From the NCBI GenBank assembly GCA_016215155.1, contig JACRLQ010000018.1, positions 1 through 63,387 on the forward strand: 63,387 bases of DNA, written 5' to 3'. Positions within the stretch are counted from its first letter, which is position 1. Each line of letters begins with the position of its first letter. The position numbers and the translations under genes are program-made. The notes under the pieces were generated by a model. It was not told the origin of the DNA. It did not search any database and saw nothing but the letters and a program-made list of their open reading frames with translations. Shown one piece after another: positions 60,743 through 63,387 of the stretch. Source of the DNA: Nitrospirota bacterium (GTDB lineage: Bacteria; Nitrospirota; Thermodesulfovibrionia; Thermodesulfovibrionales; UBA6898).

Positions 60743-60957
60743 TTTTTCATTCTAGCAATAAAAATCGGACCCGGCAACCATCACGCAAAAAAAGGGTACT
60801 CTATGTCCGATCGGTTTTTTGCAATGAAAAATGCCCCGCGGAAATAACAGTTCGATCGTGAACGTCGCCCGGTTGACTTATGGTGTCGTCCATAATAATC
60901 TGTAAACAAGGCTGCGGTCGTGATTACAAAATTTTACCACTGGGAAAAGGAGGTCTC

Positions 60958-61524
60958 ATGTTCGGGAAAAAGGTTATACGGGTCCTGTTCATTGTAGTTG
61001 TTGTCTCCGCCATTACGGGTTTTGCCGGTAAAGCATACGCTATCGGAGTCGGCGGCACGGCATGTTTCAGGGACAGTCTGGGCGGCATATGGAGTCTTGA
61101 CTATCTTGAATATGCGGCAGGTTCCGGCAAAATCAGTTTAATGGGGAACCGTCTGGCTGACGTTGAGATATGCAATAATTCGAAAGTTCAACCTGCTGTA
61201 GGGTCCGCGAGCATTCTGTCAAACGGGGTCTTATTGATGGGACTGCAGACCATCACCAACGACCCTGGAAAGTGCTCCGATGTTTCCTGGTCTGTACCGT
61301 TAAGCACCAGTTCATTTGCCGGGACTGCAATGGACGAACAATGGGGTCCTTGGCCACTCCGCGACCAGCGGTGCAAACTGGCCTACGAAAGACGGGATAT
61401 GGGATTCGGAAATCCTGTCGGGCGGGCAGAGCTTTTCTTTCACCTTTACCCAGTCCGGCACGTTCCCCTATTTCTGTACACCCCATGGATTCACGGGCAC
61501 TGTAATAGTGCGCTGACTATATAA
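60958..61524 (+). CDS. Secreted protein, probably damaged or chimeric at its 3' end
   Basis: 188 codons from the ATG at 60958 with an AAAAGGAGGTCTC ribosome-binding site (the frame open from 60880 is not used). Signal peptide MFGKKVIRVLFIVVVVSAI... with AxA cleavage near AYA, then a beta-rich part (GTACFRDSLGGIWSLDYLEY; VSWSVPLSTSSFAG) like the protein at 59,276. From about codon 122 the frame becomes Trp/Arg-rich and loses the pattern, while another frame at 61,304-61,516 encodes a cupredoxin C-terminus. The gene is either frameshifted or fused by recombination. Confidence 0.6.
   Translation: MFGKKVIRVLFIVVVVSAITGFAGKAYAIGVGGTACFRDSLGGIWSLDYLEYAAGSGKISLMGNRLADVEICNNSKVQPAVGSASILSNGVLLMGLQTITNDPGKCSDVSWSVPLSTSSFAGTAMDEQWGPWPLRDQRCKLAYERRDMGFGNPVGRAELFFHLYPVRHVPLFLYTPWIHGHCNSALTI
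61304..61516 (+). pseudogene. Out-of-frame cupredoxin C-terminal fragment
   Basis: In a frame different from the secreted protein, LQWTNNGVLGHSATSG and GQSFSFTFTQSGTFPYFCTPH, then GFTGTVIV, form the C-terminal half of a plastocyanin-like domain. Two copper ligands are plain (His in GHSA, Cys and His in FCTPH) and the usual axial Met is absent. The N-terminal beta strands of the domain are not found, so it is a remnant or the end of a frameshifted chimera. Confidence 0.65.
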
Positions 61525-61580: not shown

Positions 61581-62702
61581 CTAAATAATCCGGGATTTCT
61601 CCCTCTCCTTTTTTTCTACAACACAATAGATGCCGCCTTCCTTCAAGCCGGGCCTGAAACAGCCGTTACAGGAGATACACCTTGCAGGCATGTGGTTGCC
61701 CGCCTTCCAGCGGTTTGCCAGTTCCGGCTCCCGTATAAAGGGGCGGGAAAGTGAAATATAATCAATGCCTGCTTCCATAAGCGCGCTTCTAATTACATCA
61801 GGCGACCTGAAGCCTCCAACTGCCATGACGGGACATTTAACGGCCTTTTTTATCTCTCTGGAGGGTCCGAGGTTGTAGGCCTCCTGCTCCGGGGTATTAA
61901 TATTCTTCCGTACAGGGGTTTTTTCGCCTGAGGCCGAGGTGCCGCCGCTTACCTCAATCGCCTCGATTCCTTCCGCATCAAGAAGTCTCGCGGCATATAC
62001 AGCGTCATCTACATCGAGTCCGCCATCTAGGTTGTCCGAACCGTTTAATTTTACCAGTACCGGGAAATCCGGGCCGACTTCATGACGTACCCGGCGCAAT
62101 ACCTCGATCATAAACCGGCAGCGGTTTTCGACAGGCCCGCCGTAACCGTCGCTTCTGCGGTTGGTATGAGGAGACAGGAACTGGCTGATGAGATAGCCAT
62201 GGGCCGCGTGGAGTTGGACCGCATCGAAGCCGTACTCCTTTGCCCGCCTTGCGGCATTTCCGAACGCGTCGATAATATTTTCTATTTCCGCCAGGCTTAA
62301 CTCCTCAGGCTCTTCCGGGTACTGATCGACCTTGATCGCTGAAGGCGCAAGGGGTTTTCTGCCCGCGTTTTTGCTGTCCGTCTGTCCGCCCGCGTGAACG
62401 AGCTGGATACAGATCTTTCCGTTTTCGGCATGGACTTCATTGACGAGGTTTATCATGTCGGAGGCAAAATCGTCGGTGTGAATACCCATCTTCCCCGGAA
62501 GCTGTTTGCCCTCGGGCCTCACAAAGGCATAGCCGGTTATGATAAGGCCGACCCCGCCTGAGGCAAGTTTCCGATAATATGCGGCCAGCTTCGGCGTGGG
62601 CCGTCCGTCAGGCCCGCACATGCCTTCCCAGGTTGCCGACCGGACAAGGCGGTTGCGCAGGTCCATGCCGTTTATTGATGTATTGTCGAATATGCCTTTC
62701 AT
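61581..62702 (-). CDS. Old Yellow Enzyme-type NADH:flavin oxidoreductase
   Basis: 373 residues of the FMN-barrel family: RNRLVRSATWEGMCGPDG at the start, HAGGQTDSKNAGRKPLAPSAI, FDAVQLHAAHGYLISQFLSPHTNRRSDGYGG with the catalytic His/Asn region, and DYISLSRPFIREPEL. The C-terminus has CISCNGCFRPGLKEGGIYC, the four-Cys site seen in the 2,4-dienoyl-CoA reductase branch, which may hold an Fe-S cluster, but the second FAD/NAD domain of that branch is absent. The substrate is unknown. A GGAGG ribosome-binding site precedes the ATG. Confidence 0.9.
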   Translation of the reverse strand: MKGIFDNTSINGMDLRNRLVRSATWEGMCGPDGRPTPKLAAYYRKLASGGVGLIITGYAFVRPEGKQLPGKMGIHTDDFASDMINLVNEVHAENGKICIQLVHAGGQTDSKNAGRKPLAPSAIKVDQYPEEPEELSLAEIENIIDAFGNAARRAKEYGFDAVQLHAAHGYLISQFLSPHTNRRSDGYGGPVENRCRFMIEVLRRVRHEVGPDFPVLVKLNGSDNLDGGLDVDDAVYAARLLDAEGIEAIEVSGGTSASGEKTPVRKNINTPEQEAYNLGPSREIKKAVKCPVMAVGGFRSPDVIRSALMEAGIDYISLSRPFIREPELANRWKAGNHMPARCISCNGCFRPGLKEGGIYCVVEKKEREKSRII

Positions 62703-62719: not shown

Positions 62720-62962
62720 CTAATCAGTTTTTGGTTTTATATCTTTATCTTTACGAAGACTGCCTTTATTTTCGGCGGGTCTGTCCGCGCCGGCCTTCTT
62801 TACGCAACACTCTTCCTTGTCGGAGCAGTCGATAAAGGCGCCCTCGGCAACTTCTTCGTTATGAAGGCATGATTCCCTGCAGGTCCCGTGATATTGAGTC
62901 ACGCAGTTTTCGCTGCCGAAAGAAATTGCCGGAAACAGTATCATAGCTAAAATCCATTTCAT
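62720..62962 (-). CDS. Small secreted six-Cys protein with beta-defensin-like spacing
   Basis: 80 residues: signal peptide MKWILAMILFPAISFGS, then a core with Cys20, 28, 32, 46, 52 and 53, giving C-x7-C-x3-C-x13-C-x5-C-C. That is inside the beta-defensin pattern C-x4-8-C-x3-5-C-x9-13-C-x4-7-CC, and GTC before the second Cys and a Gly between the third and fourth also fit. The core is acidic (GAFIDCSDKEECC), unlike cationic defensins, and a basic Lys-rich tail follows. It lies between the OYE and cupin genes on the same strand. Role unknown; a periplasmic disulfide-rich or metal-binding protein is possible. Confidence 0.75.
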   Translation of the reverse strand: MKWILAMILFPAISFGSENCVTQYHGTCRESCLHNEEVAEGAFIDCSDKEECCVKKAGADRPAENKGSLRKDKDIKPKTD

Positions 62963-62974
62963 AATTTATTATAC

Positions 62975-63387
62975 CTATTCCTTATCTTTCTTATGCTGTA
63001 CCCTTATTGTGTTTTGACCGCCCTCGACCCCCAGATAAAACACAGCCAGTTTTGCGGGCGACTTGCCATAATTCCGGCCGTTATGGGCCGTGTTCATGAC
63101 CTCGAAGATGGCGTCGCCTTCGGTAAAGGAATATTTTTCGCCTTTTTCCATTTCGACTGTTATGCTGCCTGAAATCATGTACGCGTATACCGGGACCGGA
63201 TGCATATGCCAGCCTGTCTCGCCTCCCGGCGGTATCTCTACGGTGAGGGCAGTGACCTCGGGGCTGTCCGTCTTCGGATAGGTGATCTTCTGTCCGTCAG
63301 TGGTAGAGCCGGTTTTTTTGATGAGACTGACCGTGACGTTTTTATAATCGTCGCCCAGGGCCGGACTCTGGATAAACAGAACCGAGC
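62975..63387 (-). CDS. Cupin-domain exported protein, 5'-truncated by the window edge
   Basis: The frame continues without a stop to the window end, beyond the first ATG at 63205. The visible part begins SVLFIQSPALGDDYKNVTVSL, the end of a probable signal peptide, and the cupin motif is ETGWHMHPVPVYAYMISGSITVE, with metal-ligand histidines, then TAHNGRNYGKSPAKLAVFY. Small periplasmic cupins of this type are of unknown function. It ends 12 bp before the six-Cys gene. Confidence 0.85.
   Translation of the reverse strand, partial: SVLFIQSPALGDDYKNVTVSLIKKTGSTTDGQKITYPKTDSPEVTALTVEIPPGGETGWHMHPVPVYAYMISGSITVEMEKGEKYSFTEGDAIFEVMNTAHNGRNYGKSPAKLAVFYLGVEGGQNTIRVQHKKDKE

Follow-up and report, generated by a model that had tools for sequence, protein, structure and literature searches.

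Described defensins and the Nitrospirota family

Most of the bacterial defensins reported to date are cis-defensins (PMC11561630), and trans-defensins (alpha, beta and big) have been described from vertebrates and some invertebrates (PMC11561630, PMC7203481, PMC5234102). It is a matter of dispute whether the cis and trans groups arose by convergence or from a common ancestor (PMC5234102). The remark in the initial annotation that defensin-like folds are rare in bacteria is a fair one for the beta type, that fold having been described almost only in animals. The nearest bacterial precedent is provided by laterosporulin and laterosporulin10 of Brevibacillus, six-cysteine peptides for which beta-defensin-type connectivity is reported, laterosporulin10 being a bacterial antimicrobial with beta-type disulfides (PMC6989792).

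The protein described here belongs to a family of small proteins, predicted to be exported, of uncultured Nitrospirota bacteria. The laterosporulins differ from it as secreted antimicrobials that are absent from the sequence and fold matches of the family, and they are likened to it by published description. Bacterial cis-defensins such as actifensin and xanthusin-1 are, like the family, small, exported, cysteine-rich and marked by C2-x3-C3, but they have C5-x-C6 and a CS-alpha-beta fold (PMC11561630, PMC6989792), whereas all family members carry C5C6 as CC and are predicted to adopt a beta-defensin-like fold. Vertebrate beta-defensins (PF13841; human beta-defensin 6, crocodile CpoBD13 and the consensus 6mjv) share with the family the six-cysteine spacing, the terminal CC, G-x-C2, an Arg or Lys after C2 and a Glu four residues after C3, together with a predicted architecture of one helix and three strands. 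Unlike them, the Nitrospirota proteins are bacterial, acidic rather than cationic, devoid of Gly at C4-2, extended by a charged tail or fused domains, and linked by putative bridges. The big defensins (Cg-BigDef1 and Cg-BigDef5) give the best sequence match in the Protein Data Bank (PDB) as well as top-ranked folds, but possess a hydrophobic N-terminal domain ahead of their defensin-like domain that has no counterpart in the acidic, bacterial family. Helianthamide, an alpha-amylase inhibitor of a sea anemone, has the G-x-C-x3-C-x3-E stretch and the predicted fold in common with the family and illustrates a non-membrane role of this fold, although it is a venom peptide acting by enzyme inhibition.

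A conserved six-cysteine protein

The window, that is, the whole analysed stretch of 63,387 nucleotides, encodes on its minus strand (ORF 62962-62720) the product MKWILAMILFPAISFGSENCVTQYHGTCRESCLHNEEVAEGAFIDCSDKEECCVKKAGADRPAENKGSLRKDKDIKPKTD (Table 1). Its translation reads C20-x7-C28-x3-C32-x13-C46-x5-C52C53, followed by the charged tail, and reproduces exactly the spacing C-x7-C-x3-C-x13-C-x5-CC that had been proposed to fit the vertebrate beta-defensin pattern. Chance does not account for it: a loose form of the beta-defensin pattern has a single occurrence in the window, as against none among 100 codon shuffles of that stretch. The GTC noted ahead of the second cysteine is present, and the Gly at C2-2 is invariant in 22/22 cores. 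The claim of a Gly before the fourth cysteine stands only in part: G41 does precede C4, but it sits at C4-5 instead of the beta-defensin position C4-2, which is occupied across the family by I, L, V, T, E or N and never by Gly (22 cores). The matched region of Cg-BigDef5 is likewise without Gly at C4-2. The putative signal peptide displays a positive n-region, a hydrophobic core and an A-F-A/G or S-F-G end, all of which are kept in relatives; a lipoprotein is ruled out, there being no lipobox ahead of C1.

Table 1. Features at and around the defensin-like gene in the window
Feature	Coordinates	Strand	Description	Basis
Defensin-like protein gene	62720..62962	-	80 aa, stop included in coordinates	ORF, homologues, purifying selection in relatives
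Predicted Sec signal peptide, residues 1-16, MKWILAMILFPAISFG	62915..62962	-	Without lipobox	Sequence reading
Six-cysteine beta-defensin-like core, C20-C53	62804..62905	-		PF13841 match, AlphaFold model, Foldseek, VIA
C-terminal tail, residues 54-80	62723..62803	-	Variable, charged, presumably disordered	Alignment A1
Cupin-domain protein	62975..63385	-	12 bases upstream, same strand, cut by contig end	PF07883, 1.2e-13
NADH:flavin oxidoreductase, Old Yellow Enzyme type	61581..62702	-	17 bases downstream of the defensin-like gene	PF00724, 1.9e-70

Clear homologues were found mostly within the same bacterial family (61 genomes searched), where the gene is patchy (13 of 27 genomes). Across 395 Nitrospirota genomes, 22 contain a match: 16 belong to the order of the source genome and the other six to a distant family. 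Phyla beyond Nitrospirota were covered by a single strict-pattern scan of 84,980 species genomes, which yielded 16 confirmed loci, all in records titled Nitrospirota or Nitrospirae and several from groundwater. A loose beta-defensin pattern, applied to 584 kb of fetched DNA, is confined to the defensin-like family (25 distinct sequences). These 25 distinct cores, the window protein included, retain all six cysteines and satisfy C-x4-8-C-x3-5-C-x9-13-C-x4-7-CC. The spacing read in the window protein is thereby kept in its homologues, C1-C2 being x6 or x7 and C3-C4 being x13, or x11 in one divergent member. This divergent member (L015, G016:C48:4081-4233) also lacks the Arg/Glu pair and has a longer C-terminal extension.

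The six cysteines, the Gly at C2-2 and an Asp ahead of C4 are invariant in the alignment. Values of dN/dS for the core range from 0.01 to 0.28 (seven close pairs), showing strong purifying selection on the core in close pairs. A chance or spurious ORF is ruled out by the homologues, the purifying selection and the shuffles, and an origin from phage or plasmid was rejected after searches of viral contigs, phages and plasmids yielded nothing.

Sequence likeness and predicted fold

The Pfam profile Defensin_beta_2 (PF13841) matches the whole window protein with an E-value of 0.0023 and 18.8 bits, under the curated cut-off of 22.2, and a match of 19.2 bits falls exactly on bases 62804..62905. The profile recognizes 16 of 17 family members; the best relative reaches an E-value of 7.7e-6, and the core of one member (L009) scores 26.7 bits, above the cut-off. 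When the 395 Nitrospirota genomes were scanned, six loci (six genomes) exceeded the cut-off, all of them from the defensin-like family, and no unrelated locus in these genomes aligned with the whole of PF13841 at E <= 0.05. Because none of nine shuffles with fixed cysteines matched PF13841 at all, the likeness to defensin profiles goes beyond the cysteines. The defensin salt bridge is formed by an Arg or Lys after C2 and a Glu four residues after C3; 21 of 22 cores retain this pair, and both residues are lost in the remaining one. We speak of a 'beta-defensin-like' rather than a 'beta-defensin' family since the positive charge and the Gly at C4-2 are lacking.

Searched against PDB sequences, the family profile retrieves at the top Cg-BigDef5 (8bgk; E-value of 0.045), human beta-defensin 106 (0.62) and 6mjv (1.1), followed by big defensin 1 (1.3) and helianthamide (4x0n; 2.1), each of these E-values being weak alone. 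A phmmer search of the PDB with the single window sequence returned nothing but matches to Gag, none of them better than E 0.39; NCBIfam gave one sub-threshold, chance-like match and PHROGs gave none.

An AlphaFold2 model calculated from 17 aligned cores (pLDDT 82.8, pTM 0.54) places a helix at positions 4-7 and strands at 11-13, 20-23 and 35-39. A Foldseek comparison of this model with 350,542 chains gave 27 matches, of which the 16 top-ranked are alpha-, beta-, big- or ovo-defensins or helianthamide. The 16 best matches to the predicted structure are all trans-defensin folds, each weak individually (best E-value of 0.34). With VIA-align 2, human beta-defensin 6 is the best match (Z 3.9, r.m.s.d. 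2.4, 39 residues) and no Z reaches 5. These structural scores are weak because the domain is tiny, and the strength of the comparison lies in the uniformity of its match list. A six-sequence model of a two-domain divergent relative did not reproduce the defensin fold and had no structural match (pLDDT 54); it was set aside as too poor in quality. The model may also owe its fold to defensins that AlphaFold met in training. Weighing the uniform match list against the failed two-domain model and possible training recall, we regard the beta-defensin-like fold as well supported, as a prediction; structure prediction and fold comparison, which the initial annotation had suggested as a check, thus agree with its reading.

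It has been reported that cis-defensins exist in bacteria (PMC11561630) and that disulfide patterns switch in fungal relatives, the latter being model-based (PMC5234102). The family might accordingly be viewed as kin to the known bacterial cis-defensins, as a variant with a CS-alpha-beta (cis-defensin-like) fold whose C5-x-C6 has turned into CC. The C2-x3-C3 element is common to the family and to the CS-alpha-beta motif, and the poor two-domain model shows a helix over C2-C3 and then a hairpin. However, pLDDT is under 50 over precisely this helix-hairpin region, and no CS-alpha-beta family was retrieved from Pfam at E <= 10 for the members scanned, from the PDB profile search, or from Foldseek with the good model, so that we hold such a variant to be very unlikely.

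Charge, gene context and possible role

The net charge of the core lies between -3 and -8 in 16 of 17 members and is 0 in the other. The acidic core pointed out for the window protein, and the doubt then cast on a membrane-active role, therefore extend to the family as a whole. Neither the cupin gene nor the oxidoreductase gene is kept beside the defensin-like gene in relatives, and an operon meaning of this arrangement was rejected. The neighbours in relatives are unrelated housekeeping genes that differ by genome (among them der, yihY-like, MATE and ychF-like genes, as identified by eye), and no dedicated exporter or immunity gene was noticed beside the gene in the loci examined, most neighbours being judged by eye. 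Elsewhere in the window, an upstream ORF at 60880-61524 (+) has a signal peptide and no Pfam match, and a plastocyanin-like C-terminal half at 61316-61516 (PF00127, 2.4e-7) lies in a different frame from it. This plastocyanin-like region, 1.2 kb from the defensin-like gene, reflects either an interrupted frame or the merging of two gene remnants.

In some relatives, the position of the tail is taken by a further domain. Three members from two bacterial families (L006, L010 and L029) join the defensin-like domain to a cupredoxin domain (PF13473, 4.4e-14) in one frame. In six others (L067, L068, L070, L071, L072 and L013), it is followed by a second conserved six-cysteine domain with the spacing CC-x13-C-x7-C-x9-C-x5-C (alignment A4), for which no Pfam match was found. 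Another two-domain member (L073, G134:C160) has its N-terminal part masked as N in the stored data.

A bacteriocin, that is, a secreted defensin-like peptide killing or inhibiting competitors in the manner of laterosporulins and actifensins, would agree with the predicted fold, with the existence of defensin-like bacteriocins in bacteria (PMC6989792) and with the patchy presence of the gene in its bacterial family. Against this stand the acidity of nearly all cores, the low dN/dS values, which denote strong purifying selection and not diversification, the variable neighbours with neither exporter nor immunity gene noticed, the cupredoxin fusion, and the lack of any member in phage or plasmid collections; we consider this function quite unlikely. 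Given their acidity, their strong conservation and the occasional fusion to a copper-protein domain, the members of the family are probably not antibiotic peptides.

The cupredoxin fusions lend themselves to another reading, in which a metal or cofactor (copper, zinc or iron) is bound through the six cysteines together with conserved acidic residues. The protein might then, for instance, serve cupredoxins as acceptor or chaperone, and its likeness to beta-defensins would be superficial. The invariant Asp ahead of C4 would suit such a site, and neither DsbB nor VKOR was recognized in the source genome at E <= 0.001; DsbA-like proteins are present in it. On the other hand, motifs of the C-x2-C type are absent, the match to the defensin profile exceeds what the cysteines alone would give, and the AlphaFold model has a defensin fold. 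In addition, DsbB occurs in 5 of 22 genomes carrying the gene as against 16 of 395 overall (hypergeometric 0.001), a difference confounded by kinship. On balance metal binding appears unlikely.

The fold could also serve to inhibit a protease or glycosidase and so shield the envelope, as helianthamide acts on alpha-amylase. Helianthamide (4x0n) ranks high in both the sequence and the fold comparisons, and the family is conserved with no arms-race signature, but the inhibitor has no known target and no enzyme gene is kept nearby in the loci of relatives, which leaves this role distinctly improbable.

The explanation we prefer, and to which we give an even chance, is that the protein is exported, that its 36-residue core takes on the fold of an animal beta-defensin, and that it acts, without being a cationic antimicrobial, as a binding or structural module of the envelope. 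The acidic cores, the low dN/dS values, the changing housekeeping neighbours and the fusions to cupredoxin and cysteine-rich domains favour such an envelope module over a bacteriocin. The weak structural scores, the failed two-domain model, the missing Gly at C4-2 and the failure to recognize DsbB or VKOR in the source genome weigh against the preferred explanation. The core would adopt the trans-defensin arrangement of a short N-terminal helix and three strands, with expected bridges C1-C5, C2-C4 and C3-C6. Made rigid by these disulfide staples, it would most likely serve for binding or as a structural element, either in the periplasm or on the cell surface. In some members this module would stand by itself, trailed by a flexible charged tail; in others it would form the N-terminal part of a protein that continues into a cupredoxin or a second cysteine-rich domain. 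Export and fold are predicted here, and we infer the disulfide pairing, the location and the binding role.

More tentatively, Nitrospirota may carry true trans-defensin-fold proteins that represent a bacterial root or branch of the beta-defensin superfamily, in the form of non-antimicrobial envelope modules joined to electron-transfer cupredoxins. With about 36 residues, descent and convergence with animal defensins are not separable, despite a profile likeness that extends beyond the cysteines. A conserved bacterial family in which the beta-type cysteine frame occurs together with the salt-bridge residues and with a fold predicted to be that of beta-defensins nevertheless makes the question of shared origin versus convergence testable, and the scaffold appears here in a setting seemingly unrelated to immunity.
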